A stretch of 64,000 bases of DNA, taken from assembly GCF_041260155.1 (NCBI RefSeq), contig NC_091935.1:39889303-39953302 (forward strand). Direction: 5' to 3'. The notes under the pieces are model-generated. The model made no database searches. It was not told the origin of the DNA and saw only the letters and a program-made list of their open reading frames with translations. This document shows positions 1-24,042 of this stretch, piece after piece. Each line of letters starts with the position of its first letter. The stretch's first letter is position 1. The DNA comes from Ptychodera flava. Taxonomy: Eukaryota > Hemichordata > Enteropneusta > Ptychoderidae. The position numbers and the translations under genes are program-made.

Positions 1-155
1 TTATTTAAAGTTTTATCATAAGATGAAATAAAAACATGAATTCATCCAACTTTTCAAAGATTTTCTTAAATTTGTAACTCTTGTTGATACTTCGGTTTGT
101 AGGTTCCTGGGGGCAAAAGAAGTAATAAATTTGTCATGCATTATGATGATTAAAC
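1..155. other. AT-rich non-coding sequence
   Basis: No reading frame, RNA gene or repeat could be supported here. Confidence 0.5.
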
Positions 156-290
156 AATAATGCACCCCCTCCCGGCCCATAATGGACGAAAGCAAACTTT
201 GTACGACATAATGTACGAGGCGAAGCCGAGTACATTATGGAGTGCAAAGTTTGCTTGAGTCCATTATGGGCCGGGAGGGTGTGCATTATT
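156..290. repeat. Foldback (long inverted repeat) MITE-like element
   Basis: Two arms of about 60 bases are near-perfect reverse complements. The left arm starts AATAATGCACCC and the right arm ends GGGTGTGCATTATT, with a short GC-rich loop around 210-220. The arms carry matching CCCGGCCCATAATGGAC and GTCCATTATGGGCCGGG blocks. Such a structure is typical of a non-autonomous foldback DNA element. I could not assign a clear target-site duplication or superfamily. Confidence 0.8.
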
Positions 291-2829
291 GCTATTATTT
301 TATAGTTTTGGCAATGCCAGTGAATTTGTAGTTATAGAAAACGAATAAAAAAGGAAATTTAAACTGAGTTTGAAGCCAGTGAGCGTCCTGACTCTGCACA
401 CATCACATGCACTCCACACTGCACTGCACTGAACACGCACGTTCAGCACAAAAAATGACCAACACTTTCACGGTTCAATTTTGAATTGAAAAACGATGTA
501 TTTTCGAAGGAAATGAAAAGGAACTGCATCCCTACCGTCTATATCAAACTTGAAACATCACCTTTAAATATCATGCCATTCAAAAAGTCGACACGGTGAA
601 ATGCCAGAGATGAGGAAAACGGAATGTTCATGCATCCACATCAGCATGATCAGCTAGCTGCATGCCATGGTATCAGCTGATCAATACGATCATTATTATG
701 TCGCTAGTAGTACAGCATTCATTGCAACGATATCAACAGAGTTCAACATTGTTATTCAAATGTTTATATTTCAATAATAATGGTGTCTATAAATTTAATT
801 TTCGATGGCTTCTTGAGAAGAGCTATTTTATTTCGGCGAACGAGAAAACTTGACGTAAACGGGTGCTTGAAAGGTACAGTTGACAAACATACTGGAGGGT
901 TTCCGTACCGTCGCGATATCGAGAACAAGGCAAGGTAAAACCACAGACAAGGAGAAAAAAACGATGAATGAAAGTTGTCTCCGATTACAGTCAGTGCATC
1001 AGAATAAGGTGGCCGAGATGTTAGATCAACGGAGAGTCCACGGTCGTCATGATTGTTGGTAGTAGCTGACCTTGGACCGAGACTTTGAATGGCTCCGTAG
1101 TAATTTCCGTAGACACTTCCGGTCAAGGTTGATGACAGCAATGTTGGCCCGTTTACGGCTGGTTCGAGTAGCCTTTCACGCTTGCATCGTTTACATGGCC
1201 ACTGACATACATAATATGCCATGTGTCAAACCCAGTATCGTCTAGGAGTTTGCAAACGTACTGAGTTCTGTTTCACCTGTACGGCAACGAAGCGAACCAT
1301 GTTGTAGTAAACAAACGTAGTAGTAGCGTATCGGAAGGGGACTGCATGCTGAGCGCCAGTCAGACAGACGACAAGTGCATGCGTGAGGACTCAAAAAATG
1401 TGATAAATCGTACAGTAAGACATTGTTATCAATATTTTGCACCATTATCAAGAATTATAGTTTTGTGTATTACATAGTTAATCCGATACTTTCCCTCCTT
1501 TGAAATGCGCAGTCCTTTTTTCGTTTTCAAAAGAAAAACTTGCTCTCTGTGGGGCCACACTGCTGAATAATGGAATACATTATCAGTAATAATGTATGGA
1601 TATGACGTCACAAAATTCACTGGTATTGACAAAGCTATAATATAATCGTAATATGTGTTTCTAGCGACATTTTGTCATTTTTGTCATGATTCATGACATC
1701 AAATATAATATATATATAGTAAAATGTTTCTTCCGAAAGTCTATCATCATTTTTCTGCCTTCATGGAATTTCACTCTCATTAAAATTAAACATTTCAGAG
1801 ATATGCCGTGTCATTACTGAACTTTGGGACTGCTCATCAAGGCTAATTAAAACTAACGCCAGAAATTCGTGTTTTGATTTGTCGAATCTCTTCAAGAAAA
1901 TCTGTTTACGTTTGCAATTTAGCGATGAAAGATGGAATGATGACAACAGTTAATTTACTCTTTAAACTTTACCCTCAATTCACAAGGTTGATAAGCTTAG
2001 TAGCAATTCAGTGCAACGCATACTAGAGAAGTTGGCGTTGTTCGCTTTAAAAGAACCGACAGTTGATTCGTCCTCGAGTGTATAAATTATGACTCTCAGT
2101 CAAACCCTTTCGATTTCACGGCAGCATCAAGCATATACGATAATTTTATTCTGCGGGTTTAAGAAAGAACATACATGTTCTTTCGATTTTAGGACAGTAT
2201 TTGATGTAAACTATTGTATTGCTTCGATAAAGTCTGTGTGTGCCATGTGTGATAGTGGGTGTACGAGCGTGAGTGCTTCATGAACTCAACGGCGTGCAAA
2301 GGGGACGCAGTCAGAGAAGTTGTAGCAACTTCGGCCTGTGGCTTCTCCGCAAGGTGACTGACTGCCGTGTGTTATGAGTTCAAACCCGATAGAATGCATC
2401 GTATTTCATTTGGTAGGTTTGAAATATTTTCAACTGCAACACTTCCAGAACTACTTAAATAAAAGTATCATTTCATCATTTCCTTGTAATTTTAGTAACA
2501 TGGTGGGGAAATGACGCAGTTTTCGTTTTCGATCTTGTCTTTGGCGGTTGCAAGGACACTGACAGTGCTCATTCAAGCTTTTCCAAAAGCGTATAGGTAA
2601 AGAGCAAGGCTGCCATACCATTCACCACATACCTTGCAAAAAAAATTCGCGATGACAACATCTTCCCTGAAATGAAACTTTTAACAAACAACAGGGATTA
2701 ATAGGTTGTGTCAAAATTCTTCAAAAAGATACAAAGCGTATGTTTTTTAATTTAAAAATTATAATACGTTTATTAGTTAGTTTATCAGCCTCAGAAGGTG
2801 TGTCTATACATGTATCTGGGGATTTGAAA
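291..2829. other. No supported gene; unique-looking intergenic sequence
   Basis: Short open frames occur (for example 764-1222 on the - strand) but none has a recognisable domain, splice structure or composition bias that would support a gene. A run near 2290-2400 contains a short inverted repeat and a B-box-like GTTCAAACC, but it does not fold as a tRNA in my reading. Confidence 0.5.
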
Positions 2830-3180
2830 ATAATTAGCTATATTTATTTATTTAGCGGTTCAACAGACTACAAAGCCCGATAACAGACTCCGAAAAATAA
2901 ACAGAATACAAACAAACAAACAAACGGTATAATAGTAACATACAAAAAATAAATAGAAGAATTTGAAATACAATATATACAGTATACAAAGAGTCGACTC
3001 TAAGAATAAAAACGTCTGGACACAAATGTTTTAGAAACAGTATTAAGTAAAAATATATCGACAGAAATGTCGTTACACAGTGTAATAGTCCTAGGGATAA
3101 AAGAAAATTTTCTCATATTCAACCTGCAACGTATGGGACAGATGTTCGGCTTTAAAGGTTTTACAATTCTTTTGTGATCA
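2830..3180 (-). repeat. LINE 3'-end fragment, paralogous to 5630-5930
   Basis: This stretch is clearly homologous to 5630-5930: both contain a (CAAA)n-like tract, the block ACAGAAATGTCGTTACACAG and the same flanking order. In the second copy, the minus strand translates to the end of a reverse-transcriptase type ORF, so this is read as a minus-strand LINE 3' end. No intact reading frame remains. Confidence 0.6.
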
Positions 3181-3266
3181 ACCGCTTTTTGGGCTCATTT
3201 TAAATCTCTTGAAGTAAGAACGTTTGTCAGTGTCTTAGCTGTTCCAAAATCAGAAATTTCATTTCT

Positions 3267-4619
3267 AGGCTGTATTCACAAACATCTCTAGAGGGTGGGG
3301 GAGAGGTGGGAGATTACAGGGGGGGACCTGAAAGAAAATACAACATGCTAGGGGGATCTGAAAAAATTGACATTGGAAAGGGAGACTTGAAAATGTATTG
3401 AATATCTATTCCTCTTCAAATATCTTCTGGCACTTTCATTTCCTGCCATTTCCATTTTCGGCGCGCCCTTCGGGCGCAAATTTTTTTAGGGTATACAAAA
3501 CAATTTTATAATTCATACAGCCACCTTGAGGCAAAAGATTTAGGTTGTCGTGATTTGTACTAACCCAATCCCTCTGTTGCTCAAAACTGTCCTCAATGAT
3601 GACTAAAATTTTAACTTAACCTTTCAATAACAGTTTGGGAGATAACTTATTTGATAACTTCATCGCTTTGACAATACATTTGATTTCGGTCAGTGTCAAA
3701 CGTTCATGCTCCGTATGTAAATTTTTATTTCTTTAGGACTTTGACAGAATACAAACTATTTAGAACAGTGCATAGTGTCAACAATAAGAATTGGAAGCTT
3801 CAGGTCAAACAAACTTTTAATAACAATTAGGGAGATGATAACCTATATTCGCAGTTTCCTCACAGACTATAGTGAATCAATGTATACCGGTAGTGAATCA
3901 AAATTTTCAGTGCAATTCAAAACTCAAATTTCTTGGTCACACATGCACTTGTAATACGTAAGTCTAATCAACCACATTAATATCAATTATCAAACGTCTA
4001 TAAATACACAGATTTAGCTAGTTTTGTATTGTATTGTAAAAAATATTCACAGTTTTGTCATGACGCCCATGTAAAGTGGATCAACATATTTAGCGAAATT
4101 CCAAAATTAAATTTCTTGCACGCATGTGCACTTGTAAATACATGCTAATCAATTACATTAAGATCAGTTATCAAAGTTATAGATGAGCAGATATTGCTAA
4201 GTTTATATTGGAAAATACGCGCTCATACTTTTCTCATAGACACAATGTATTGTGAATCAACATTATCGATGAAATCCAAAAATCAAGATTTTTGTAAACA
4301 CTTTCATTTTTTACCTGCCACTTCAAGCAAAGTAAATTTACACGAATTATCACACACATATAAATGTAGAGATATAGCTTGTTTTTATGGGGAAGATGTT
4401 CATATTTTGCCAAATAAACTTCCATGTATTATCATTTGATAGTTTTGGACGATGCACTTTATCGGCAACGTTTTCCCTTCCTTCGAGGGGACTTCAAAAT
4501 TATATCAAGTCAGAAGGGGGACTTGAACACGTTGTGAGTTTGTAAGGGGTATTTGAAGAAATCTAAGAACTTTTTCATTCATCTCCCGCCCCCTCAAGAG
4601 TTGCTTGTGAATGCAGCCT
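3267..4619. mobile_element. Non-autonomous TIR DNA transposon (about 1.35 kb)
   Basis: The left end AGGCTGTATTCACAA and the reverse complement of the right end, AGGCTGCATTCACAA, match. Similarity continues inward through CTCTAGAGGGTGGGGGAGA and CTCTTGAGGGGGCGGGAGA. The element interrupts a dispersed repeat whose two halves flank it (compare 16.99-17.2 kb, where the repeat is uninterrupted). The interior is AT-rich with degenerate direct repeats (around 3900-4200) and no transposase frame. The superfamily is not assigned. Confidence 0.75.
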
Positions 4620-4939
4620 GACACAGAAATGGTGACCATTTTCAATTTCAAATATTGATAATGTTAGTTAATTTTTTTTCTCTCGTGAAAAAGCTTACAT
4701 GGTGACCCTTGACATTTAGCTCACCGGTTAACACACGTGAGTTAATGTCGCAGCGATGTCTGTCTGTCTGTGTGTTTGTTTGTCTGGATGTTGGCATGAA
4801 ATTTCAATAATGGCTTATCGGATCAAAATCAAATCTGGTACATAGATTTGGTTTGCAAATTGCAAGAAATGACTAGTTTTTGGTGGGCGTGACTTTGATA
4901 TTTTAAATTCATTGGCATAATTAATGATTGTAGAAAATC

Positions 4940-5560
4940 AAAACATTAAAATCAAGACATGGAGTCAGCAACCTATATGTCTCTCAGCTATGCATGTATA
5001 CCAAAAGGTGTTTATATGTGCACCAGACTTATTTTTCTGAATGGCGAAGCACAGTGCTGTAAATCAAATTCTATTATTACAATAAAAAATGGACTTTTCA
5101 GGGACGAAAACCGAGTGTAATTGATTGTAGGCAAAACGTTGTTCCTCGCTTTATGATTCAAATATATGGAGGAGTATGCATTAATTTTCAAAGCCTATTA
5201 TCAGAACATCATTTATTATTATTCATTTATCATAAGTTTTGATGCTTGTGATAATAACTTTTCTATGAAAGAATAATTTCTTTTCTCGGAAACTCTAATC
5301 AATCGTGCTGACAATCGTGCTGTTGATTGTATCATACAACGATGTCCGGATACAATCTCTAAAAGCTTCATTAACTCACACTATAATGCATTTGACATGG
5401 TTTGTCTTCTGTCTGTATAATTTATTTTCTTGTCCTACACCAAAATATTGTTTGTTAAAAAGCTCTGTGTTCATCTGAATGTTGAATGCTATTTTGTAGA
5501 TCACGGAAGTTTTAGCGTTAAGGGGAATTAATTTGCCAACAATAATTTTGCAAAGTTGAC
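4940..5560. repeat. Segmental duplicate of 10510-10650 and 11130-11370
   Basis: Blocks such as GCACAGTGCTGTAAATCAAA and AATATTGT followed by AAAAGCTC, and their order, recur at 10.51-10.65 and 11.13-11.37 kb. The second copy carries the LTR-like insertion at 10660-11130 and lacks about 170 bases found here. The segment shows no coding potential. Confidence 0.65.
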
Positions 5561-5629
5561 ACTGTGTGATGATTTTATGAGGCTGAGGTTCTGTATTTTC
5601 GCGAAATGCAGGGTGACGGTTTATCTATT

Positions 5630-6560
5630 TATTTATTTGACGGTTCAACAGACTCAAAGGCCCGAAAGAGACTCCGAGAAAATAGATAGAATAACAAACA
5701 AACAAACAAACAAACAAAAAACAAACAACAGAATAATAGCAACAGACAAAACAAAAATAAATAAGCAACAATTTGTAATACAATATGTACAGTTAAGTAA
5801 ATATTTTAAAAGCAGTATTAAGGAAATATATATCAACAGAAATGTCGTTACACAGTGTAATAGTCTTAGGGATAAAAGCAAATTTTCTTATCTTTAACTT
5901 GCAACGAGGAACTGGAACATAAAGACGGAGCCCTAAGCCGTCTGAATGATGCATAAAATGACAATTGAAATAAAATGTAGGGACAAGAAAATCTCCCTGA
6001 ATTTTCTGCAGAAGCGACTGAGAAGGGAGATTAAAATACATGCAGGACTGTTTGTAATTTCTATTATAGAACCCAGAAAACTTCAAACACATATATTTCA
6101 GAACACTTGTTTGATCTTTCTCTTCACAATCACTCAAATATTAGCAATGGGGAGACCAGACCACAGAGCGGTACTCTAATCAGCTTCTTACTAAAGATAC
6201 ATACAAGTATTTCTCTCTTTCTGAAACATGCTTTTTGAATGATAGATCAGAAACTAGGATAACACTCAACAGGCACTCTATTTTACTGACAACCATCGAT
6301 AGAATATTCATGCAAAATGACATTTCTCTTGTTGGTGTTAAGGACACAACATTGCATTTCAGAATATTGATGTTAATCTTCCACAAAATACACCAATTAC
6401 CTTAACAAAGCCTCATGTAAGAGAATACGATGTACAATCACGTAATAGATAAAGTTACTAGTAATTTCACGAAATAGTTTAGAGTCAGCATACATACTGA
6501 TCTGACTGTGAAGAAGGATATTGGGAAGCTCATCAATACATCAGACAAAAAGACAATCAA
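5630..6560 (-). pseudogene. Decayed LINE reverse-transcriptase C-terminal region
   Basis: Reading the minus strand, interrupted frames resemble the thumb and C-terminal part of a CR1/jockey-type LINE ORF2. Near 6440 there is a stretch resembling the segment after the catalytic FADD box (ADSKLF). At 6250-6390 comes a KCNVVSLT-like block, then a DLSFKKHV motif, and at about 5810-5900 the usual end FIPKTITL-x-NDISVD. Frameshifts and stops break it in several places, and no catalytic core is left. It ends close to the BRICHOS promoter. The family identity is inferred from motif order only. Confidence 0.65.
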
Positions 6561-6727
6561 TTACTCACGTATTCCTCATCATGGTTAATGTACCATGTGA
6601 AACGAATGTTATTTAATGTTACTTTGTTAATCGAAAAGTTTCTTAAGTATACATTATTAGATACCACACAACCATTGAAGCTTATTTTACGGGAAATCAC
6701 TCATTTGGTGGCACCCCTCTGTCAATG

Positions 6728-6735
6728 TATAAATA
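6728..6735 (+). promoter_or_regulatory. TATA box of the BRICHOS-peptide gene
   Basis: TATAAATA lies 88 bases upstream of the start codon. The surrounding 200 bases, including CACTCATTTG upstream and AAGCCTCG and CTTCTGCAGAAGACAAC downstream, are conserved at 19.46-19.70 kb in front of the decayed second copy. Transcription probably starts about 25-30 bases downstream of the TATA box. Confidence 0.75.
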
Positions 6736-6822
6736 AGCCTCGCACTGGCTGTTGGGTATCAACTTCTGCAGAAGACAACCCAATACGTACCCAACTGTAA
6801 GAAGACTGGCAAAATTCCAAGA

Positions 6823-9800
6823 ATGAAGGATTTCGTCGTTGTATTTTGTCTATTGGTCGTCACTGGCTGTATTGGTCAGACATTGGTAAGCGATTATCAA
6901 GAACTATGATTAGAATGTTTAATTTGTAATCAGTACGATGTTTGCAGTTCGTTGGTTTATTTAATGAAAGATAACAGAAATTTGATAGCAAAGATTTTAG
7001 ATATGTGTGTTGTTCAGTTTATCTATATTTTGTGTAAATGTACGATAGATATTCAAAGAAATTGTGACAATTTTAATACCATTTTGTGTGTTAACTGAGA
7101 CTGGTTTTGTATCGAGGTTCGATTTATATTGAAAGGATCATTTCATTTCAGGCGATGATGATACTAACAAACGATTAAAACACTACTCCAGAGTTTACAA
7201 CTCAAAATAGACAAAACTTGTTTCGTAAATTACTTCATATCTAGGCGAAGCCATATGCTTTCAAATTGGTAGTTGAACGCAACGGAGAAAAGAAAGAAGA
7301 GTTAGTCATTGTGGATGAAGAGAAAAACGTTGAGATATTCAGAGAATATGGATCGGATACAAAAGTCGTGGTCGATTTCGACACGGTAAGACATAGTGCC
7401 TTATTTATATTTTTGGATGTGATCTCTTTAAATCTGCCGAGCAAGATGAGTGCTTAATGTTAGTAAAAACAAAACGTACAGAAAACAATTGTATTCATTT
7501 GTTAAAACCTCAGCTCGTGACGTCACGCAGGTTATTTTCCACCATTACTCACCATAGATTACGGCAGACCGAATCTATAGAGGCATTAATTGAAGACATT
7601 CGTCATTTTGTTAAATCCATTTTTTCTTTGAAAGACGTTTATATTGCTCTTTTGTGTGCGTGCTGGTGTGGACCGTCTTCATTAGTTCATGCTATCAGCA
7701 TGATGACGTCAATTTTGAGGAGTGATACGAAACTGATAAAGTTAACGTTTTAATGCCCATTGCATGTCCTACAAACAAACATTGACATATATCATAAGAG
7801 ACAAAAGCGATCATGATAATTTTAGATATGCCAACGTTGTCTTTTGAAATTGTCTTTTTGCTAGGCTTCCATCTTTCCATGATGCTTCAATCATTCCATA
7901 AGTATATATTTCACTACTTATGTCAACATGTACTGTTACATTTCCAGGGACTTGAAGCCTTCGTTCATGAAGAGCGCAATGCTTGTTACATACGACCATT
8001 TGACAGTAATAAGTACATGACTCCAAAAGAACTGAAACGTAAACTCAGACTGCAAGCCGGCAAGGTAACGTTATTTCCACTCTCTACTTATATGACGACC
8101 ACAGAGAATTCTAAAACCAACAGAGAGAAATAAATTAGTCAACATAGTACAGTTTTAAATGTCCGCTGCGATGATATTACAAAGACATTCTTCTGTTTGA
8201 GAATGAAGTTGTATCCATTACTCAAAGAATGTCTGTCTGCTCGTCCTTCAATGACTTACAATAGGAAATCAAGCAACAGAGCGAAGACATTGAGTATTAC
8301 ACCGTGGCAGGTGGTCCTATCAAGAACTCAATGATAGTCGGAGAAACTATTGGACAAGAGTGTGAAGGCAAGGCTATCTATTGGTTGAAATGTGGACAGC
8401 CCAATGATGCTGGTAAGTGATAGTTTAGTTGATCGCAAAGCGTCATGTGAGGTCAACGTGAGTTTTGTAAAATGACTAAGGAAGGGTAATAGGTTAGCGA
8501 GAACTGAGGCGAGGCGATGAAACTACTCATCGATCTGGGATTAAATAATACTGGTAACTTTCAGAAAGGTGTGCAGATACTTCGGATACCAAGGGATGTT
8601 TTTCACCTTTTTGTGACAAATGATTTCGATGACAAGAGCAGCATAAAGACACATTGTTTGTACAGAGACGGACGAGTACATAATAAAGGCTGTAAGCTTA
8701 CTTCGCAGAGTTAAGTTAGGATGCGCTTCGGAGGCAAATATTCGAACTCTCAAATTTTTACAATCTTTTCCGATCTACAACTTTTGGGGACTCATTTTTA
8801 CGCGCTAGGTGTAAGAAAATGTTTCACCGTCTTAGATTTTCGAAATCAAAAATTTTATTTTTCGCCTTGGACTTTGCGCATTGATGATGGCCATTTTGAA
8901 TTTAAATATCGGTAAATCTTGGGTAACTCGTTTCTCTGGTACCAAAATTTATATGGTGACCCCGAATTTTATTCTCCATTTTGAAAGAGAATGTTGAAAT
9001 GATCCTGGAGGTTAGTTTGAGCAAAAGTGTAAGTCTTTCACTTTCGAGGCGCATACTACCTTAAGCTATAGGATTGGAATTGAATATAAAAGGCAGTGAC
9101 AGCAGGGTGCCAAGCTGGTCTATCAGAGAGAGCGGTTTACTTTTGCGATAGAGCTTTGCAAGATCGTCGCGATCGGAAAGGATAAGAATTACTATGGGGA
9201 GGGGTGATAAGCAAGTCTGCACCAGAGAAAAAATACATTAGCTAATGCCTCTAAGCTTGCCTTGGAAATATGAACATTTCCTCAAGGGAGGGCGCTGTGT
9301 CAGAACAAAAGTTTGCTTTCGGAAGAGCCAAGAGTTTGCCAGATATCGTTTTTGGAGAGGATGCCAAGCCCGCTAATACGTCGAAAGAATACTTAAGTCT
9401 TGTCATGGAGAACCAAACTTTGTCTTAGGAGATCTACAAGTGTAGAAAAGAATTAAGTCAGAGGAAACCTTCCGTGATTCTCATGGTGGATACAGATACT
9501 ACGATTAATTACACTCAGTAACGCTGTTCAGTGAAAGTCACAAACACAGGAAGCTATTTCTGGTTTATGAAGCGCAGTATCTGTCAATGTTGGTACATTT
9601 TTGAGGTAAATGAATCATTGCCTTTATCATTTTGGTCGACTCAATGACTTTACTTGAATTGCAGTTTATCAGAAGACAACTCTTAAACTGTCTAACAGAT
9701 GCATACGTGATCATGTAAAGTCTTAGTATAGTATACGTACATTGTATAACAGTTCGCGGTTTTATAGTTAGAAAATTAATTTAGAAACACAATTATTGTG

Positions 9801-9887
9801 TATTTTATTTCAGGTGCATCTGCCAAACCATGGAGTCCTTGCCGGGTTGTCTGTTTTTACTATGACTGTACAGCTCTTTGTGACTAA
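6823..9887 (+). CDS. Secreted BRICHOS-domain precursor with C-terminal four-cysteine hairpin peptide
   Basis: Five exons with canonical GT-AG borders and matching phases: 6823-6885, 7245-7385, 7948-8064, 8265-8412, 9814-9887 (180 residues). Exon 1 is a signal peptide (MKDFVVVFCLLVVTGCIG). Exons 2-4 form a BRICHOS domain: a beta-rich linker, the conserved Asp (D65 in VVVDFD), the first conserved Cys (C81 in NACYI) and the second (C140 in ECEGK). Exon 5 encodes residues 157-180, ending with C166, C170, C175 and C179 and then a stop. BRICHOS domains act as chaperone-like proregions for beta-prone peptides. In polychaete arenicin, alvinellacin and capitellacin the antimicrobial hairpin sits exactly here. 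The C-terminal peptide is inferred to be the released product, but it is near neutral or acidic and no dibasic cleavage site precedes it, so antimicrobial activity is unproven. An extra Cys (C150) is unusual. Confidence 0.85.
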
Positions 9888-9982
9888 CTGAAAGAGGATC
9901 ACCATGCTTCCTGAAAGCCTTCCTAGCAATTTCCATTTTATTGACTTAAATGCCATGTCACGTAACTTATGACCTGAAGGTA

Positions 9983-9988
9983 AATAAA
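9983..9988 (+). terminator. Poly(A) signal of the BRICHOS-peptide gene
   Basis: AATAAA lies 96 bases after the stop codon. The homologous site in the decayed copy (21845-21850) reads AATACA. Confidence 0.65.
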
Positions 9989-10659
9989 AGATAATGAATT
10001 GTGTGTGAACGTCATGTTACTTCCTTTCTGTGACAGATGAAACCTCCACGCCGACAAATTGATGGGCTTTGAACTTCAACATAATAACAACACATTTGAC
10101 AGTATATTCTACACAGTGGTATCACATAGTTTTCGTCTGGAGAAAAACGACATACGCATCAGTTGTCAATTAATTTAGAAAACTTGTACATGTATGATAA
10201 GGATAAAAAATAAAATAAAATAAATGTGCAAATGAGCCACTGTGTCATGCGTGCATGAATCGCAGGTTTAATCTGATCACTTGCCATTAGGCCTAACATA
10301 CCGATAAATCTACTGACGGGCAGATATAGATGGTGCAAACGAGGATTAAAGTAGTTTGATAACAGCTGAACAACTTGGTGTTTAAACTAGTGTAAACATG
10401 TGCAACAGCGCATGTAAGAGATTCCAGAAGAGAAATGAGAAAGACATTGCAAAATCATGAAGTTTTCGCCAACAAGTGCTTTCAAGTCCCCCTCAAAAGG
10501 AGAGTGTTGTACATTAAAATAAAAAATGGTGTCAGCAACCTACATGTCTGTCAGTTATGCATATATGCGCCAGACTTATATTTCTGTTTGGTGAAGCACA
10601 GTGCTGTAAATCAAATTCTATAATTGCCATCACAAAAAATTGACTTTTCAGAAGCGAAA

Positions 10660-11130
10660 TGTTTACTATAAGTGGAGATAATTTTGGAACAGCAAGTAGC
10701 ATACCAATAGAAGTTCTAGATCGTTCTTACATTCTCTTATATAATATTTAAAGTATAAATATATACTGGGGCAGCAGGCTTGCAGTCAGACATTTTGGGA
10801 TCGTGTCTCTTGCGTGTTACTTCAAGTCTTTGGAAACTCCAGCACTATTAATTTCAAGACTTTTCAAGACCTTCACTGCCACGCTGGATTTATACTGTGG
10901 ACTTTGTGCAACTTCAAGCCTGCAAGCCAAAGGACTGTTCATTCATCCGACTGACTGTTACAACTCTGAGACTGGAGCTTTGCCGTCCCAGCTGAGATAA
11001 GTAGTCCGTACACTTTTACAGTTTGTATTCTATCCCTTGACTTAGCGATTAGTTTTATTCTTTGTAATAAAGTTCGTTTTATACGGAAACTGCTGAGTTC
11101 ACCTTTTTGTTCGTTTTCTATCACGTAACA
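10660..11130 (+). mobile_element. Probable solo LTR (471 bp)
   Basis: The segment starts TGTTTAC and ends GTAACA, giving short TG...CA inverted ends. It contains a TATA-like AAGTATAAATATA near 10750 and a late poly(A) signal (TAATAAAG) near 11066. It is followed by ATGGTGCAGAC, which resembles a retrotransposon primer-binding site. It is absent from the paralogous segment at 4.94-5.56 kb, which supports insertion. No internal gag/pol sequence or clear target duplication was found. Confidence 0.55.
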
Positions 11131-11600
11131 ATGGTGCAGACAATTGTTGATTATGACATAATACAGATGATAACGATGATCGGGTACCATCTCTAAAAGC
11201 TTAACTCACACTAAATCATGTAACATGTTTTGTCTTCTGTCCGTATAATTTAGTTTCTTGTCCTACTCCAAAATATTGTGTATTGAAAAGCTCGGTGTTC
11301 ATCTGAGCGTCGAATGCTATTTTCTAGATCACGGAATTTTTTTGCCAACATTCCAACTTTTCCCCACACAGAAACTGGGCAGTTTGGATTATTCATACAT
11401 ATCTACTGTTCGTAATGTTTATGTCGTAAACACATCTATCGCACACTTTAAACACCTTTCCCGGGTTCTTGAACCCGGTTGGTCAAAATTGGCTGTTCTG
11501 GCCTTTTTGATCACCCCTCTTAAAATGCTTGGATAGTTGACTTGCAAAACAATTAACATTAAAAGTTTCCGGACATCATGAGACACGAACAATCGCAACA
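11131..11600. repeat. Second half of the 4.94-5.56 kb duplicate
   Basis: The order of blocks after CATCTCTAAAAGCTT matches 5330-5560 up to about 11370. From 11370 to 11600 I see no feature. Confidence 0.5.
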
Positions 11601-11604
11601 ACAC

Positions 11605-12545
11605 CAATTCAAAGAAAAGTCAAATTGGACTCCACGAACAGCAAAAATACAAAAACCTGAAAGCTATCTAAAGCTCCTAAACTCGCACTTATAGAGATAC
11701 CCTTTCAAACAAGGAAACAAAACATGTCGCGTGCCCAAAGAATCGCAATAAACCAGCTTGCAAACAGTAGACCAATTACCAGAAAAAAACTTTGACAAGG
11801 GTCGGGTTTTGTCTTTGTCAACACAAAAGATTGCGTACACGAATACGAAAGGCAATTACGCAACACTAAGTATTATACACAACTAGCCAGTGACGACACA
11901 GAACAAACAATAAACAAAGTACACGAACTATTAAACAAAATGTACGAGAACAAACACATCGATCATGATACTTGTAAGTATCTTGATCCAGAAAACATAA
12001 AATCCGTACCCCGCAGTGGTACTTATTGCCTAAAAATTCACAAACCTCGGCAAAATTCTAAAAGACACATTATTCAAAACAAAATTTACTGAAGTAAAGA
12101 AACATAGAACAAACAACTGAACAACCAAACGGACTCACAACGAGACCCAAACATTAATATACTTGCCTCGCTACTCGAAGAGCAAGACCATTAAAATGCA
12201 TTAAAATAATTTTTCACAAACACAAACTAAAGGAAAGAATCTACACTGCGACTGATGAGAAACCACACTCGGGTTTCGAAACGCAAGCGTCAAAGGGCCA
12301 CTCTATCAACTCTGTAACACAATAGGTCCGGCTGCGTCTCGCCATAAGCTTTCCCCACACAAACAAAACATTACCGTACACACTGATCCAAACTTCCCTA
12401 CAAATATCCGAGGCGAAACAAACATTTTTGTTAACACAAACAATCGGATAAGAATGTAGGAACACATTTTTGAAACGAATCAAACACAAACTCGACACAA
12501 AAACATTTTGGATAGTTAGGTGGGAGCCTCTTTCACACTTTTTAC
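11605..12545 (+). pseudogene. Penelope-like retroelement fragment, left copy
   Basis: The plus strand translates in broken frames to the N-terminal part of a Penelope-like reverse transcriptase. It includes a YVHECERQLR-like stretch near 11840 and a GTYCLKIHKP block near 12020-12050 that corresponds to the YLLPKIHK motif of these elements. About 200 bases later the sequence passes directly into a hammerhead-bearing non-coding segment, so the catalytic RT core and the GIY-YIG endonuclease are missing. A near-identical copy lies at 14668-15590 in the opposite orientation with the same junction. Stops and frameshifts make it non-functional as a protein gene. Confidence 0.65.
12252..12291 (+). 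ncRNA. Hammerhead ribozyme core (Penelope-like type), plus strand
   Basis: CTGATGA (12252-12258) is followed by stem II, in which 12259-12264 pairs with 12272-12277 across a seven-base loop. Then come the core GAAA (12278-12281), a minimal stem III (ACGC/GCGT around a two-base loop) and the GTC cleavage triplet ending at 12291. All core positions I can check fit the hammerhead consensus. Short-stem-III hammerheads are known from Penelope-like elements, which fits the adjoining RT fragment. Stem I is only weakly paired here, so self-cleavage as a monomer is uncertain. Confidence 0.75.
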
Positions 12546-12654
12546 ATTCATTGCTCTTGTGTGGGGGGTTGTCAACCTGATGTAATCGCAAATCCTCAGA
12601 TTTCAATCTGATATAAGTATGTACGTAAACAAGAAAAGTAAACTCATGAATTTT

Positions 12655-12714
12655 AATAGACGGGGTGGCTAAGACCAATTTCAAGCGAGATTGGTCTCAG
12701 CCACCCCGTCTAAT
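12655..12714. repeat. Perfect-looking hairpin (inverted repeat)
   Basis: Arms of about 25 bases carry TAGACGGGGTGGCT and AGCCACCCCGTCTA, plus matching GACCAAT and ATTGGTC blocks, around a loop of about ten bases. It sits just beyond the part of the left Penelope-like copy that is shared with the right copy. It may be a tiny foldback element. No target duplication is evident. Confidence 0.7.
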
Positions 12715-12715
12715 A

Positions 12716-13740
12716 TGCCGTTCATACACAGGCCATTGAAACGTCTCTGAAACGGTTCTGGGCCAATACTGACACAGAAAGTTATGTGTGGACACTCCGA
12801 AGTGGTTCTGAAGCGTTTCAGATTTGAGACGGTTTAGTCGGCCCGACCAGAGCCGTTGTAGGGATTAACTCTATCCGCAAATCGCTGTGTGGACAGACTG
12901 AGCCGCTTCAGAAGCGTTTCAAACGCCCTCACGCGACAGGTATTTGTAACATAAAACAAACAACAACCAATATACAATATTCACTTTTGCCATGGCTGCC
13001 GAACACAGTACTACATCTCGCGGTATACTGGTCCGACGAAGAGATAAGCTTGCTACCAAAAACCCTATCAATTCGACCAGAAAAAATAATTACAATTTGA
13101 AAAACGTCGAATTAATAGGAAATTAAAACTGCCGAAATAATTTAGTGGTCGAATGAATTTAATTTGGAACGACGAGGATGAAATTTAAGCGAGACATGTT
13201 TGCCATGTTGAGACTGCTTCAAAGCATGGACTGAAATTTTGTGAGGTCGACAAATTAAGTAACAAAAAACCTCAAACGCACGTTGGTGTCACATCAAAAT
13301 CAAAGTGGCCGCGATTACAGACGGAACAATCTGTGACACTGCCACCGGCCGCTCGACGGACGACACGTAAGTTGACATCGTGTGCCAGCCCTTGGAAATA
13401 TATTGTAACTCCTTGACAGGCAGATGAGATTGTCTTATAGCGTTTGATGCATTGAAAGTTTGTAAAAATAATAAAAAATGACATCACCGATCATAAGAAA
13501 TGTGGTGTTGAAGATAATAGTTTTTAAAAGAAGACTATGACGACCATATTTCTGTAAGTATTATCTAACTTTAGAAAACCAACATCTAAAGATTTACTTC
13601 AACCAACACTTTTGGATTTGTTCTACTCTTTATTATAAGATTAGTCGAATTTCTGGAAAGTAGGTGTACATTTTCGATGTCTGTGTATCGTCTACACCGA
13701 AGTCATATCCGAAAGAGTATAATCAGTTCGCGACAGCGTA
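12716..13740. other. No supported gene
   Basis: At 12730-12930 several diverged CTGAAACGGTTCTG and GAAGCGTTTCA-like blocks occur in both orientations, which suggests a decayed DNA transposon end. The rest shows nothing I can support. Confidence 0.4.
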
Positions 13741-13744
13741 AACC

Positions 13745-13794
<50 letters not shown>

Positions 13795-13813
13795 CTCTCT
13801 TTCTCTCTCTCTC
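13745..13813. repeat. (CT)n microsatellite
   Basis: An almost pure CT dinucleotide run with a few interruptions. Confidence 0.95.
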
Positions 13814-14667
13814 CGGCATTTCAATGTTTTATATTGTCGACATTTATATATCAGTCTGAAGTTTCAGGTCACTGCTCAATGCAAGTAGTTGATGTCAATT
13901 TTTCCGTATCGGGCATGGTCTCTATCGTCACTCTAATCGTTAGTGTTTTCCTGTTATATTCCATATCAAACTCAAAACACAACGTGAACAACGCTGATAA
14001 TATATTGCATCTTTCGTATCGAAAACCGGTAAAGTTCGTAACTGGTGACATGTCACGGCCTGGAGTGGAGAAAGTTCATCACCATCGATCGAATGTCCGT
14101 GACGCTTTTGCTTCCAAATAGACATATTGAAATGCACAGGGAACTTCGCGGTATGGCAATTATATGAATTTTACCGTGAAGAAAGTCTGTGACTTTAAAC
14201 TGGCCGTACAACCAACAATAAACATGGCAGAGCAATGATACCGATTTCAGAGACTTCGATTTTTTTTTCATTGCGACCTCGACCGCTGGTGAGAGCGAGT
14301 CGTCTATTTTTTTCCCACTGGCTATTTGGCTTTGAATTTTCAATTGCCATCATGTGCTAAGTTAAAGCTAAAAACAAGACGGGCGTTCTCTGTAAATCAA
14401 TAAGCCTTTTGAATATGAAAAAATCGGACATCTGAACCTCAACACGCAGCTTGAAAGTTGTTCTCCGAATCAGGACAGGGACATCGGCCCGGGACATCGG
14501 TGAGGCCGGATTTCACGTAGTAGCTATGGAAACCGACGGCTCATTCGTTGTAAGAAACCATGCGATGTACGCTCCCTTGGGCCGTGGAATTTCGCCGTAT
14601 CGCCTCTACAGACTACACTATTACCTAACCATGCAATAAACAATCACACGATAGTTCAGTAACATGT
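13814..14667. other. No supported gene
   Basis: Several overlapping open frames on both strands (for example 13834-14121 and 14053-14343) show no domain or repeat similarity. This stretch separates the two inverted Penelope-like copies. Confidence 0.4.
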
Positions 14668-16085
14668 ATAAAGTGTGAAAGAGGCTCCCCACCTAACTAT
14701 CCAAAATGTTTTTGTGTCGAGTTTGTGTTTGATTTGTTTCAAAAATGTGTTCCTACATTCTTATCCGATTGTTTGTGTTAATAAAAAATGTTTGTTTCGC
14801 CTCGGATATTTGTAGGGAAGTTTGGATTAGTGTGTACGGTAATGTATTGTTTGTGTGGGGAAAGCTTATGGCGAGACGCAGCCGGACCTATGGTGTTACA
14901 ATGTTGATAGAGTGGCCCTTTGACGCTTGCGTTTCGAAACCCGAGTGTGGTTTCTCATCAGTCGCAGTGTAGATTCTTTCCTTAGTTTGTGTTTGTGAAA
15001 ATTTATTTTAATGCATTTTAGTGGTCTTGCTCTTCGAGTAGCGAGGCAAGTATATTAATTTTTGGATCTCGTTGTGAATCCGTTTGGTGGTTCGGTTTGT
15101 TTGTTCTATGTTTCTTTACTTCTGTAAATTTTGTTTTTGACTAGTGTGTCTTTTAGATTTTTCGGAGGTTTGTGATTTTTTGGGCAATAAGTACCACTGC
15201 GGGGTACGGATTTTTATGTTTAATGGATCAAGACACTTCTACGTATCATGATCGATGTGTTTGTTGTCGTACATTTTGTTGAATAGTTCGTGTACTTTGT
15301 TTATTGTTTGTTCTGTGTCGTCACTGTCTTGTTGTGTGTAATACTGAATGTTTCGTAATTGCCTTTCGCATTCGTGTACGTAATCTTTTGTGTTGACAAT
15401 GACGATACCCCTACCCTTGTCGAAGGGTTTTTATGGTAATTTGTCTATTGTTTGCAAGCTGGTTTATCGCGATTCTTTGGGCACGCGAAATGATTTGTTT
15501 CCTTGTTTGAAAGGGTATCTCTAGAAGTGCGAGTTTAGCAGCTTCAGATAGCTTTCAAGTTTTTGTTTTTGGTGTTGTTCGTGGAGTCCAATTTGACTTT
15601 TCTTCGAATGGGTGTTTATTTATTGTTTTTTTCGGTAGTTCTCTTTTTGGAGAATTTGGTGGCCCTGAAAAGGGCCGTTTGGTATGGGTTTTTGTTTAAC
15701 TCTTGGTGCGTTTGTTTCGGCGATGTGCCTTGTTTATGCTTCTTTTTGCTGATTCGATGTGCTTGGTGAGTAGCTGTTTTGCCTTTTTCTTCTCACCAGC
15801 GTCGCTGATTTCGTTGATTGTATCGTTGGCTGCCTGGATCGTGTTGTCGATTCGTGTGTTGTTTTCCTCCTGATGCAGTGGGAGATAGTTGTTGATTGAC
15901 TCAACAAATTTAAAAACACTGTGTCTATTTTGTTGACGCCACTTTGTTGTAAGAGCTTCGTCTGGTTTATGGCCCGGTAGTTGTGCTCTTACGTTGAATT
16001 GCAAGCTTCGTGGGACCACTATTTCTTGCAGACAACTATGGATTGATGCCAGTTGTTGTTCGATGTTGTGTTGGTTTATGTACAT
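14668..16085 (-). pseudogene. Penelope-like retroelement fragment, right copy (inverted)
   Basis: Nucleotides 14668-15590 are the reverse complement of 11605-12545 with roughly 90-95 percent identity by eye, including the hammerhead and the same RT/non-coding junction. This copy extends further upstream in the element sense. The minus-strand frame 15696-16085 (129 codons) is basic and glutamine-rich and probably represents the N-terminal region of the Penelope-like ORF. Between 15700 and 15000, broken frames give an IKPLDKG-like block, a YVHECERQLR block and a LLPKIHKP-like block. The RT catalytic core and GIY-YIG domain are absent. Confidence 0.6.
14922..14961 (-). ncRNA. Hammerhead ribozyme core (Penelope-like type), minus strand
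   Basis: This is the exact reverse complement of the 40-base core at 12252-12291: CTGATGA, six-pair stem II, GAAA, short stem III and GTC cleavage triplet are all intact. Neighbouring protein-coding sequence has diverged between the copies, so retention of every core base is notable. Confidence 0.75.
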
Positions 16086-16254
16086 TTGTTGAAGCAGGTT
16101 TCTTGTTTTTTCATGTGGCTGAAGATTTCGTTGCTGACACGATCTGTGGTGGTACTAGGGTTTGAGAATGTTAAAATTGGTGACTTACTGCTGATGTTTC
16201 TGCAGTACAGCTGAGTTGCTGGGATGAGGGTCGGGTCTCCGTTTTTTGTATACA

Positions 16255-16640
16255 CTACTGTTTATGTAGCAGAAAAACGCCTCCACCCTATTATTATGAC
16301 TGTGCTTCTTGCGATACATTTTTGTATCCTGAGAAGCACAATGTAAAAAGACATGAAAATCAAGAAATTGCACCATTTTAACTCAACTCACTGATCACAT
16401 TGTCTCAGATTTCATTTAGAAAATATAAATTTTCATGTATAGATCACTGTTTATCTAGAAAAACTCCTTCACCCTTTTTCTATTACGACTGTGCTTCGAA
16501 TTCTTGTCCTACATATTTTGTATCATTAGAAGCACACTGTAAAAAATCTGAAAATAAAGAAATTGCAACATTTTAACTCAACTCACTTATGAAATGCTCT
16601 CAGATTTCATTACAAAAAGTGAATTGTCTTGTATAGACCA
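16255..16640. repeat. Two tandem units of about 190 bp
   Basis: Both units contain, in order, CACTG or CACTACTG followed by TTTATGTAG or TTTATCTAG, ACTGTGCTTC, AGAAGCACA, a GAAATTGCA block, TTTTAACTCAACTCACT and CTCAGATTTCATT. No coding content was seen. Confidence 0.75.
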
Positions 16641-16959
16641 CTCGAGTGAGTAGTATTCCTCGAGCTCTCAATTTCCAGGTATTCCTTAAGTAATTAGTAA
16701 TAATAATCCAATATTCCGACGTTTTGCTTTTTAATTTAATTCAGTAATTCATGATGAGCAGATTTGGAGGAACCCGTTTGAGATGTGTTCGTCAACCGCT
16801 CAGTTGTCCGGAATTCTTCGAAACGGTTGAGTTATCTGGATAAGAGCTTAGTGTCCGATGTAAACCCATTGTAAATAGAACTGGTAATTACACAAGAGCG
16901 CGTTCCACTTCCGGGATGGTGCATTCTTATCTGAATCATGCGATTTCATATTATAGATT

Positions 16960-17300
16960 AATTAAGGCAGAACACGCCTCTTGGTAGGATATCCGGTCTT
17001 CCAAGGTTTTACAATAGTTTTCTGATCTACTGCTTGTGTGGGTTCATTTTGAAACTCTTGATTTAATTAGTTTTTTTATTGAGAAAATCAAAAATTTCAC
17101 TTTTCCTTCACCATAGAATTAACACCTGGATTGCGGCCATTTTGAATTTCAAATACCGGTTTCTATGACACCGCAATTTGCCCAGTAACCTCCGATTGTT
17201 TTGTTGATTTTGAAGGAGTATGGTTGAAAGATTTCTTGAGGAAAGATTGAGCAAAAGTGAGTCTGTCAATTTCGAGGTGATAGACTGTACACTTGGACGT
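16960..17300. repeat. Dispersed repeat related to 8.73-9.06 kb and to 3.14-3.26 plus 4.62-4.72 kb
   Basis: Shared blocks in the same order are TTTTACAAT, TGATCTAC, GGCCATTTTGAATTT, AAATACCGG or AAATATCGG and GAGCAAAAGTG. At 3.27 kb the same repeat is split by the TIR element. It carries no gene. Confidence 0.55.
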
Positions 17301-18980: not shown

Positions 18981-18984
18981 TTTT

Positions 18985-19250
18985 AGTCCTCAAGGATGTC
19001 CGGAGGGACCAGTAGTTTTGGTCATGTGCCTGCGGGCGTGCGTGCCTCTGTCACCAAGCATTTCTCAGGCTATTTCTTTCAAGTTGGTACAACAACATTG
19101 ACCTATGTCATTCATATGCATGTCAATTAGTTTCACAATGTGACGCAATATGGTCATTTTGTTATGATTTTTTCAAGTCCGGAGCCGTAACTCAGACACA
19201 TTTTTACCAATATCATTTGTGCAATTCAAAAGTTGAACCACCCAATTCCA
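18985..19250 (+). mobile_element. Fragment of the TAGTCCCC-ended element family
   Basis: It begins TTTTTAGTCCTCAAGGATGTCC, followed by GGTCATGTGCCTGCG. It then continues with TTGGTACAACAACATTGACC, a degenerate version of the 149-bp unit found at 59.9-60.6 and 62.9-63.4 kb. It represents one end of the family seen complete at 34957-36550 and 57020-63462. Confidence 0.6.
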
Positions 19251-19637
19251 CCGAGGTATTTAGTTGTGTATGGCTGTCACTGACATTACTATTACTATTT
19301 GCCATCAATTACTGTCTTCAAATATAGGACTCTGGGGACTGTGTAATCGACGATGACTCGTTAATTTTAAATTACCACACATTTGTGGGTTAGTTTTACA
19401 GCTACAAGAGGTATGCATAGCTGTACGTTTACGGCGACTGACAATGAATTAGCTGCTATATCGAGAAATTACTCACGTATTCAACATTATGCTTAATGTA
19501 CCGAAAGAATGCTATTTCATTTAACTTTGTTAATTTAAAGTTTCTGAATTAAATTATTAATTACTTACCACAAAACCACTGAAGTGTATTTATGGTAATT
19601 TCACTCATTTGAGGGCCTCCCTCTGTCGAGTCAAATG

Positions 19638-19645
19638 TATAAATA
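19638..19645 (+). promoter_or_regulatory. TATA box retained at the decayed BRICHOS copy
   Basis: TATAAATA in a context matching 6728-6735, with AAGCCTCG and TCTGCAGAAGACAAC conserved downstream. The homology to the active copy stops at about 19703, where the sequence jumps into exon 4. Confidence 0.65.
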
Positions 19646-19703
19646 AGCCTCGTACTGGCTGTTGGATAGCACCTTCTGCAGAAGACAACTCAGTAAGTAC
19701 TAA

Positions 19704-21834
19704 GGTAGTCCTATCAAGAACTCAATGATAGTGGGAGAAACTATCGAGCAAGAATGTGAAGGCAAGGATATCTATTGGTTGAAACCAGGACGGGTCACTA
19801 ATACCGGTAAGTACCAATCTAGTTTACTTCAATGACATAGCGAAGTGTGAGGTCAACTTCCATTTGGTAAAAGTCAGGTTAAAGAACGGAGACGAGGCGA
19901 TAAAACTACGCGTCGATCTGGGATTAAATTTTCCTTGTAAACTTTTAGAAAAGTGCCCAGATACTAAGAACATAAAGATACATTTTTCAACTTATATTAT
20001 AATTGTATTAAATGATTTCGGCGACAAGAGCAGCAACAAAGACGAGCAATTGCTTTGTGCATTGTCTGTACTTCGAAGGGTCAAGGTATTCGGATCGAAT
20101 TGCAAATACACGTAAAATACGGGGGGGGGGGCACCAAGTGGTTACGACAGAGGGTGTCAAGCTGGCATATCAGAAACAGTTAATGGTTTAAATTTACTTT
20201 TTGTGAGAGAGCTTTGCAAGATCGTCAGAAAGGATAATTTTTACTGTGGGGAGAGGTGGTGAGTAAATCTGCACGAGAAACGAAAAGTTCACTTTAGGTA
20301 AGTCACTATGCTAGCCTCAGAAAGAAGAAAGTTTATAGGGTGGGCGGTTTGTCAGGACTAAAGTTTTGCTTTCCGAAGAACAAAGAATTTGCCGATGGGA
20401 TATAAAAACATCATTTTAGTAAAGGATGCCAGGCCAGCTTTTATGACAAAAGGAAAGTTAAGCCTTGCAAGTCATGGAGAAAAGAACTTTGTTTTGGGGA
20501 TCAAGAGCGCTAAAAGTGTAGCAAAGAATTAACATTCAAAGAATATCCTACGCTTGAAGTAATTCTATGGTTTGGGAGTTCCTTTGGCGAGGACGGTGGG
20601 TCTCTGCCAGACAAATGTTTTAGTTTTTTCATTGGGAAGGGGACTGGGCTGACCTATCGATGGAAACCTTACTTTCCGAAAGGTCACAAAGTTCGCTCGT
20701 CAGAAAAACGAAGCGTACCTTTACATGAGATTGTTTGGCTGACATTGATGACAAATGTTTTTACTTTACTGAGAATGACGCCCTCTATGTCATAAAAAGT
20801 GAGGTTTTACTCCAGAAGGCGTGATGAGCTGTATGATAGAAGGAAGAAAGGTTTCGGGGCTGAATGAGACAGAAAAGACGAGCTTTATATATCTGTGGGA
20901 AAGAACGAAAATATTAACCTGCATCAATCAGGGCACTTGTCAATGACTAGATTTACGGACTTGAAGCATGAGTCTACGTTGACTTGTTGGGTACCGCAGT
21001 TCATCTTTGATACTTAATCTATTAGAGTTTGCTGTTGAAAACCTTTTAAATTTATCGCCTTGCAGGCAAACTTTTGAAAGTTGTTTTCATATTGATGTAG
21101 ACACCACGGTTAATTACACTCGGTGACGCTTATTGGTGAGATTGACAAACACAAGAACGGCATGCCAAGTGCCAACAAGTTATCATTGTAATGTATGTTT
21201 CAAGAGTCATTCTTACATTATAAACATTACAAATGAAAAATTATTAGAGTTTGGTGTTAACAACCTTTTAAATTTATCGCCTTGCAGGCTTGAAGGGAAA
21301 CTTTTGAAAGTTGTTTTCATATTGATGTAAACACCACGGTTAATTACACTCGGTGACGCTTATTAGTGAGATTGACAAACACAAGATCGACATGCGAAGT
21401 GCCAACAAGTTATCATTTGTAATGTATGTTTCAAGAGTCATTCTTAAATTATAAACAACAGTAGCTCAGTATTTATCTCTGTTGGTACGAGTTTGAGGTA
21501 AATGAATACTTGAACAATCACTTGGCCTACTCACACCTATTTTGAATTGCAGCTGATCAGAAGACAATTCTTAAACTGTCTACGCCTATGTTACCATGTA
21601 AAATTTCTTCGTACGTTTAACTATTCGTGTTGTTTTTAAATTAGAAATTTAAAAACAATTAATGTTTATCTTATTTCAGGTTCACCTGTCAAACGGGATC
21701 GTTGCTGGCAAGTCTGTGTGGCATCTGTCTGTGTACAGTTTGTGACTCACACAAAGAAGACCGGCGTTCTTCCTGAAAGTCTTCCTTGCAATCTCCATTT
21801 TATTGAGTTTATTGCGATGTCATGTAACTTATGA
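19704..21834 (+). pseudogene. Truncated second copy of the BRICHOS-peptide gene
   Basis: Two exons remain, homologous to exons 4 and 5 of the gene at 6823-9887: 19704-19806 and 21680-21834, with GT-AG borders and matching phase 1. About 1.5 kb corresponding to exon 1 to early exon 4 is deleted, removing the signal peptide, the conserved Asp and the first BRICHOS Cys. A stop (TAA, 19701-19703) precedes the first exon in frame. The second conserved Cys (QECEGK) survives. The hairpin exon contains a KR dibasic pair followed by C-x3-C-x4-C. A net one-base shift then replaces the fourth Cys by a long tail that reaches TGA at 21832. The poly(A) signal is mutated. A short leaderless product from an internal ATG is possible but unlikely to be secreted. 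Confidence 0.8.
21021..21460. repeat. Tandem duplication of about 222 bp inside the decayed copy's intron
   Basis: ATTAGAGTTTG, CCTTTTAAATTTATCGCC, GTTGTTTTCATATTGATGTA and GGTTAATTACACTCGGTGAC occur twice in the same order. The active gene's intron 4 has one diverged equivalent near 9505 (GATTAATTACACTCAGTAAC). Confidence 0.75.
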
Positions 21835-22390
21835 TGTGAAGGTAAATACAAGATATATTATAGCATAATGAATTGTGTGTGTGTGTGTGATTGTTATCTG
21901 TCACAGATTAACCTACCATCGTGACAGCCTGAGAATGACGGGGTTTGGACTTCGACATGAAAACATTACGTCTGACAGCACATTCAACACAGTGGCATCA
22001 CACACTTTTCCTGGAGAAAAAATGTGCAGTGATATAAAATACCCATCAGTTGTCGGTTGATTTTTAAAAGTTATAAATGATCACGCAATGTATGATAAAG
22101 ACAAGAAAGTTTAGTAATTATGCCACTGTGTAAGTGCATCAAGCGTATAGGTTCGATCTGATCAGTCGCCGATAAAATACTGGAAGAAATAGATGCTGCG
22201 AATGAAGATTATAGCAGTTTAATAACCATGGCAGAAGGACCAACTTGTTTTAAAGCAGTGCGTGGTAAATATGTGCAGCGTGGCATATAAAAGTTTACGA
22301 GAAGAGGTGCAGAAGACATGGCAAAATGATGAAGTTTTCGACAACAAGTACTGTCAAGTCCCCCTACAAACATGTTCTCTCCCCGTACAG

Positions 22391-23316: not shown

Positions 23317-24042
23317 GAAGTATACAGGTTGATGCACACTTGTTTGTCTTGGGTATAGTTATAATGGGGTAAAGTAACTGTGTAATGTTGTAGTATCATA
23401 TCGATAACTCGGGGTCAATAAAACCTGACTTTCGTCCGCGGGGGAAGTTTTGTCGAACGAATGCAACATTTGACCCGAGTTGCGGAACCTTTGACATATG
23501 ACATGATTTGTACCTTTTTTATCAACATATAGGTGACAAATTGTTATTTTCTACATTGCGGAGCTGTATCTGATGTTATGTTGCTTGTTATAGCCTAACG
23601 TTGAATTCTCAAACACCCATCAAACGGGGAGGTCACATGATCAGTGGCAATGTATTAGGAAGATGTGTAAAAGCCGGTAGCCAAAATTCATGAATGTATT
23701 TGATAAACTTGATATGTACAAACACATAATTATGGAAATATGATCCATCAAAACGATCACCAGCAAAATAATAAGTCACAAATAAAAATGTAAGTCATGC
23801 AGAAGTAATGAACACTGTATAGTCTCTTCTAAGTTATTGCACAGGTACATGTCACTTAATGACATTTGATATCGTGAAATAAAGTTGTGCATTCTTTGAT
23901 AAGGTATTAGTATACATTGAGGTCACGTGACAAGCGTCAAAGTGACAGGTTACATGTCTGCGTCACTCTGAGAAAAACGCTAGTTTGTACAACTAGTCGG
24001 TGAGTATTTTGATTCAAAGTCGTTTGGCAAACTCCATGAAGA

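Follow-up and report, generated by a model that had tools for sequence, protein, structure and literature searches.

A 64,000-nucleotide stretch of the genome of the enteropneust hemichordate (acorn worm) Ptychodera flava (contig NC_091935.1; hereafter the window) contains an intact gene that most likely encodes a secretory precursor of a BRICHOS-hairpin family in hemichordates. Five exons at positions 6823 to 9887 (+) join in frame to encode a 180-residue protein in which a BRICHOS domain is followed by a four-cysteine tail on its own last exon. In this gene and one close paralog, two of the three genes of their subclade, convertase release of the tail has most likely been given up. We lean toward the reading that the product is a secreted precursor whose BRICHOS domain would guard the tail, with no release by a convertase, so that the two parts would act jointly or be separated by another protease. 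Because it has neither a dibasic site nor a cationic tail, we class the product among the hairpin precursors of the BRICHOS family rather than among antimicrobial peptides.

Gene structure and the BRICHOS domain

The exon lengths sum to 63 + 141 + 117 + 148 + 74 = 543 nucleotides, GT-AG borders were found at all four introns, and residues 4 to 18, as read from the sequence, form a hydrophobic, signal-like N-terminus (Table 1). The window has a GC content of 37%. The original prediction, made from the nucleotide sequence alone, had five exons joining in phase, and the same 180 letters were found in an NCBI protein named "arenicin-2-like [Ptychodera flava]" (100% identity over 100%), whose gene model was made independently of that prediction. 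This protein, which represents the window gene, is referred to as P0001; the other clusters of the family are P0002 to P0013, P0004 being an ENA sequence. The possibility that exon 5 was a chance exon was ruled out by the identical independent model and by the retention of the tail in paralogs. No NF-kB motif was found near the promoter, and the whole window held three against 1.75 expected. In P0002, the NCBI start (MYK...) falls in sequence that aligns with the TATA-box region of the window gene. This start is probably wrong, and MKDF is the likely true one.

Table 1. Features of the window gene and its relic paralog (positions in the window)
Feature	Position	Strand	Description
TATA box TATAAA	6728..6733	+	95 nt before the start codon
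Exon 1	6823..6885	+	Start codon; hydrophobic N-terminal residues 1-21, probably a signal peptide; agrees with NCBI P0001
Exon 2	7245..7385	+	Linker and start of BRICHOS; residues 22-68, D65
Exon 3	7948..8064	+	BRICHOS; residues 69-107, C81
Exon 4	8265..8412	+	Remaining BRICHOS with C140, extra C150; phase-1 exon end
Exon 5	9814..9887	+	Linker without dibasic site, C166-x3-C170-x4-C175-x3-C179, stop codon
Polyadenylation signal AATAAA	9983..9988	+	
Relic paralog	19467..22370	+	Exons 1-3 absent; the 5' flank continues directly as mid exon 4 at 19703

A BRICHOS domain with D65, C81 and C140 had also been predicted, and a Pfam profile search bore this out, matching PF04089 at residues 59 to 147 (E = 5.7e-15; 55.8 bits against a cut-off of 25) and no other domain in the protein. 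The three residues stand at the predicted positions and are spaced by 16 and 59, exactly as in human ITM2A (D144, C160 and C219), where they are described as the only fully conserved residues of the BRICHOS superfamily; the same source describes ITM2 as combining an acidic BRICHOS with a basic C-terminal region (PMC2751770). The BRICHOS domain was matched in all 13 family members. When the PDB was searched, the BRICHOS domain of the vertebrate protein ITM2B (Bri2) was the best match and the only credible solved relative, with E = 0.0033 for the single sequence and 8.4e-9 for the family profile; three more rows from the profile search, at E = 0.076 to 0.95, were unrelated. Bri2 is a membrane protein with a furin-released tail, and we know of no four-cysteine ladder tail in the ITM2 family. 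A search of NCBIfam gave no match for P0001, and the 13 proteins together gave four single-member chance rows. Residues 98 to 102, in exon 3, carry K-R-K and R-x-x-R (RKLR) inside the BRICHOS domain, which within the subclade is seen in the window gene alone; cleavage at RKLR would split the chaperone.

The four-cysteine tail and the P. flava family

Exon 5 encodes 24 residues, and its C166, C170, C175 and C179 have the spacing of Cys5, Cys9, Cys14 and Cys18 of capitellacin, a beta-hairpin with laddered disulfides Cys5-Cys18 and Cys9-Cys14 (PMC7761999). The exon join, the Pfam match and the cysteine spacing thus uphold the prediction of a BRICHOS precursor whose capitellacin-spaced tail is encoded by a separate last exon. 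The precursor of capitellacin, from the annelid Capitella teleta, consists of a signal peptide, BRICHOS and a C-terminal hairpin with x3-x4-x3 cysteines, and the window gene has a likely signal peptide, BRICHOS and a tail of this spacing; capitellacin differs in its positively charged residues and preceding Lys-Arg, as well as in its phylum. The window tail has a net charge of 0 from C166 to C179 and of -1 with D180, so that the description of an aromatic, near-neutral or acidic hairpin proved accurate, and the cationic mature peptide usual in BRICHOS antimicrobial peptides is absent. Tachyplesin is cationic and, to our knowledge, has no BRICHOS precursor. This two-disulfide beta-hairpin of horseshoe crabs has been described as the peptide most similar to capitellacin, and one paper gives the spacing of both as C-X4-C-X4-C-X4-C, which conflicts with the capitellacin residue numbers (PMC7761999).

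A six-frame translation of the window contains the pattern C-x3-C-x4-C-x3-C two times, at 9840+ and near 8017-. By itself the pattern therefore proves little, and its weight comes from its position and conservation. Among 136 phase-1 terminal-exon candidates with at least four cysteines, the [3,4,3] spacing was found only at 9814; the candidates comprised 18 on the + strand at 8414-19400, 47 on the + strand at 20001-64000 and 71 on the - strand, with + strand positions 1-8413 and 19401-20000 left out. An alternative hairpin exon in intron 4 or downstream to 19400 (+) was thus rejected for this spacing.

Searches of protein collections at E ≤ 10 returned at least 13 clusters of the family, counting the window gene; 12 of them are named P. 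flava. Only P. flava clusters and P0004 appeared among the matches listed; as the searches require shared five-residue words and, in one case, covered at most 8000 candidates, we draw from this no inference of absence from other phyla. P0001 to P0003 share one chromosome-sized contig (45.7 Mb), and three further contigs carry the remaining nine named clusters. In a tree without an outgroup, midpoint-rooted for drawing only, P0001 to P0003 were separated from the ten other members with full support (100/100), while the sister grouping of P0001 and P0002 was weak (83/30). The four-cysteine spacing is retained in all three subclade genes: P0002 and P0003, which lie outside the window, keep each of the four cysteines, and most of their other hairpin residues differ. 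The idea of a new type of BRICHOS cargo therefore holds as far as a diverged subclade, comprising three intact genes and one relic, is concerned.

Outside the subclade, eight of the ten tails have four cysteines with long loops (about [5,13,5]), the P0012 tail has six ([3,1,8,1,3]) and the P0013 tail eight ([3,1,1,3,1,1,3]). The spacing is exactly mirror-symmetric in 10 of the 13 tails and asymmetric in three; under random placement, the probability of such symmetry is 0.009 for P0012 and 0.003 for P0013, and the four-cysteine tails are individually weak (0.04 to 0.19). This arrangement suits antiparallel disulfide ladders, and the P0012 and P0013 tails, if they are hairpins, would form ladders of three and four rungs. 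Against the PDB, the window tail gave no arenicin-like match but four rows of TSP-type chains by chance (best E = 0.43), and the P0002 tail gave similar TSP-type chance matches. The cationic P0005 tail had no match, and the P0012 and P0013 tails matched EGF-type or antibody chains only, with no solved relative. The best matches of the P0003 tail were two derivatives of arenicin-3, NZ17074 among them as the first, both short of significance (E = 0.23 and 0.24); a third chain that shares letters with these derivatives was also not significant (E = 0.78). Arenicin-3 of Arenicola marina and its derivative NZ17074 are two-disulfide hairpins from a BRICHOS precursor family.

Sequence divergence between paralogs is concentrated in the hairpin. 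For pairs within four clades, the pro-regions are 76 to 95% identical, compared to 18 to 64% at hairpin positions minus the shared cysteines. The hairpin diverged more than the pro-region in nine of ten pairs with the shared cysteines excluded (Fisher p = 0.0011 to 3.4e-10), an exclusion that favours this result, and still in nine of ten with them kept (p = 0.01 to 1.3e-8), the pairs within a clade not being independent. The exception was P0010-P0011 (p = 0.1 without and 0.2 with the shared cysteines); P0004 and P0008 belong to no clade compared. Such a pattern is expected of defence peptides, and protein divergence does not distinguish positive selection from relaxed constraint. The P. flava family (13 clusters, with the tail on exon 5 in the window gene) resembles the preproalvinellacin family of Alvinella in being a multigene BRICHOS family with the peptide on the last exon. 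The two differ in what is kept: in Alvinella the peptide is reported to be identical between paralogs (PMC5431198), whereas in P. flava it is the pro-region that is conserved and the hairpin that varies.

A review gives BRICHOS-related antimicrobial peptides as "identified in polychaetes only" (PMC6780910), and the hemichordate protein described here falls outside this range, which is a reported range and not a matter of mechanism. A loosely worded sentence in PMC12466427 mentions peptides with a BRICHOS domain in a list of discoveries from "polychaetes, mollusks, cnidarians, and tunicates" without specifying the group; in later reviews that mention BRICHOS, this one included, a word search turned up no hemichordate. 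Within the open-licence literature, we found no paper on BRICHOS in hemichordates or on arenicin in acorn worms, and a search for Ptychodera flava together with antimicrobial peptides led to neuropeptide work only. The genes are already in NCBI under automatic-looking names, with no published description found in that literature. Their recognition places BRICHOS-hairpin precursors with antimicrobial-type members in deuterostomes, which are absent from the polychaete-only account quoted above, and moves the question of origin from the level of polychaetes to that of bilaterians.

Convertase site, charge and rival readings

The tail is preceded by R-x-K-R in 10 of the 13 members, namely all ten outside the subclade, and by KR in 11 of the 13, including P0003. 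The linkers of P0001 and P0002 contain no KR, RR, KK, RK or R-x-x-R, so that P0001 lacks a dibasic convertase site before the mature peptide. In P0003 and in the relic, V-K-R still precedes the first cysteine of the hairpin. Since 11 of the 13 members and the relic have the site, we regard it as lost in P0001 and P0002 rather than never present, on a tree without an outgroup.

Counted from the first tail cysteine, tail charge outside the subclade is +1 to +6 in nine members and 0 in P0013, while the subclade has a short, near-neutral, hydrophobic hairpin with a charge of 0 or -1. The pro-region carries -4, -6 and -12 in the subclade, compared to -13 to -20 in the others. Pro-region and hairpin charge were anticorrelated across the family (Spearman -0.87, n = 13; -0.76 for the ten members outside the subclade), but phylogenetic contrasts, for which open forks of the tree were resolved by hand, gave no significant relationship (r = -0.30, p = 0.32), and we therefore dropped the idea of coupled charge evolution as not established. 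Cysteine-rich, BRICHOS-encoded tails without pronounced cationic character have been described for HfBRI-75 and HfBRI-91 of Heteromastus filiformis; these differ in having 11 cysteines and 75 to 91 residues, and a dibasic motif is reported for the 13 H. filiformis precursors.

A further cysteine directly behind the BRICHOS domain (C150 in P0001) is common to P0001 and P0002, and with seven cysteines after residue 20 they have the only odd mature counts among the 13 proteins. With an odd number one thiol stays free to pair, and the product could possibly form a disulfide-linked dimer via unpaired C150. The intact protein would measure about 18 kDa.

In the mechanism that we propose, the precursor would be secreted, and BRICHOS would act in the secretory pathway as chaperone of the tail, which is hydrophobic and aromatic, and prevent its aggregation until the disulfides form. 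Ladder disulfides C166-C179 and C170-C175 would then close a beta-hairpin, as in capitellacin. The hairpin of the window gene would most likely stay joined to BRICHOS, or be freed by another protease, and the tethered product, possibly dimerised through C150, would serve as a hydrophobic binding module, in secretion or in mucus, and not as a classical cationic membrane-killer.

The window gene might instead encode an ordinary BRICHOS antimicrobial peptide, released after K161 or by another protease, with a hydrophobic and aromatic action on membranes despite its zero charge. This would fit the precursor architecture and cysteine spacing of capitellacin, which has been described as carpet- or detergent-like in action (PMC8953592), and the near-neutral P0003, with KR before the same [3,4,3] hairpin, demonstrates that such a combination exists in the subclade. 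The bare linkers of P0001 and P0002 and the proline after K161 speak against release, however, and arenicin-3 is an amphipathic peptide in which replacing or deleting two arginines was reported to significantly reduce antibacterial activity (PMC7311426). We consider this alternative unlikely, and antimicrobial action of the window copy is doubtful given a hairpin that is not cationic and has no arenicin-like PDB match.

The missing site and low charge could also mark a decaying paralog that lost both after duplication and is heading toward the pseudogene state already reached by the copy at 19.7 kb. Consistent with this, a true relic lies 10 kb downstream, and gene and relic are no more alike in exon 5 (75.0%, 51/68) than in the alignable part of intron 4 (79.0%, 619/784 columns; intron of 1401 bases). 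Yet all five exons, the splice sites, the BRICHOS residues and the four hairpin cysteines are intact, the sister protein P0002 is full length with the same features lacking, non-cysteine hairpin residues vary and the cysteines do not, and dN/dS for the exon 4 part against the relic is about 0.47, on 34 codons and few sites. Decay thus appears improbable, and we give equally little credence to a non-immune secreted protein with a receptor ligand or structural mucus element as its tail. For the latter, the tail is near neutral, vertebrate BRICHOS tails have no known antimicrobial role, Bri23 is reported to lack such activity (PMC6780910), and of the 12 named P. flava clusters NCBI names three "leukocyte cell-derived chemotaxin 1-like", a chondromodulin name, and leaves four uncharacterised. 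A hairpin that is hypervariable between close paralogs is nevertheless unlike a conserved ligand, and the ten members outside the subclade have furin-type sites, nine of them with cationic tails.

We accordingly keep to the guarded, unreleased tail as the preferred reading for the window gene. For the family as a whole, we infer a host-defence arsenal, given that the relatives are hypervariable, mostly cationic and flanked by convertase sites, and given the annelid peptides. A broader and tentative picture, which we put forward as a speculation, would be a deuterostome arsenal that pairs a conserved chaperone with a hypervariable exon for ladders of two, three or four rungs, one branch of which, having lost convertase release and positive charge, would have turned an antimicrobial precursor into a secreted two-domain binding effector, possibly dimerised through a disulfide. 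The paralogs form a natural series, from R-x-K-R with a mostly cationic tail, through KR with a near-neutral hairpin, to no site with a near-neutral hairpin. This series allows the cargo needs of the BRICHOS chaperone to be tested, which is relevant to BRICHOS in human amyloid disease.

A relic paralog and other elements of the window

A tblastn search with all 13 proteins (E ≤ 0.01) found no second intact copy in the window, only the relic. V-K-R and three cysteines survive in its last exon, near 21680-21740, and the frame breaks before the fourth; this exon resembles P0003 (63% over 19 residues). The 5' flank of the gene (6559-6790) is 84.9% identical to that of the relic (191/225 aligned bases), the exon 4 part 83.7% and the 3' UTR 83.2%. 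Judged from this comparison, the locus shows duplication and loss. Defence gene families often show both.

A canonical histone 3' UTR stem-loop was detected at 15636-15681 (-) when the whole window was searched (Rfam RF00032, E = 4.6e-8), 14 bases downstream of a 152-residue open reading frame (15696-16154, -) that matched no Pfam family at E ≤ 0.001. The two adjoin a pair of inverted repeats (11600-12547 and 14664-15616) that are 92.8% identical, and the ensemble is perhaps a mobile element using a histone-type 3' end. Broken frames resembling a non-LTR retrotransposon occupy 24040-28648 (+), with an RVT_1 match (E = 4.4e-25), an endonuclease piece under the Pfam cut-off (3.6e-5) and an upstream 420-residue frame that was only weakly matched. 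A transposase-like gene at 57447-58960 (-) consists of two overlapping frames, one piece matching DDE_1 (E = 1e-9) and the other without a match. Tandem arrays with periods of about 226, 286, 150 and 150 bases were found at 35055-36381, 55486-56039, 59894-60557 and 62903-63361, respectively, and the last two are related to each other.
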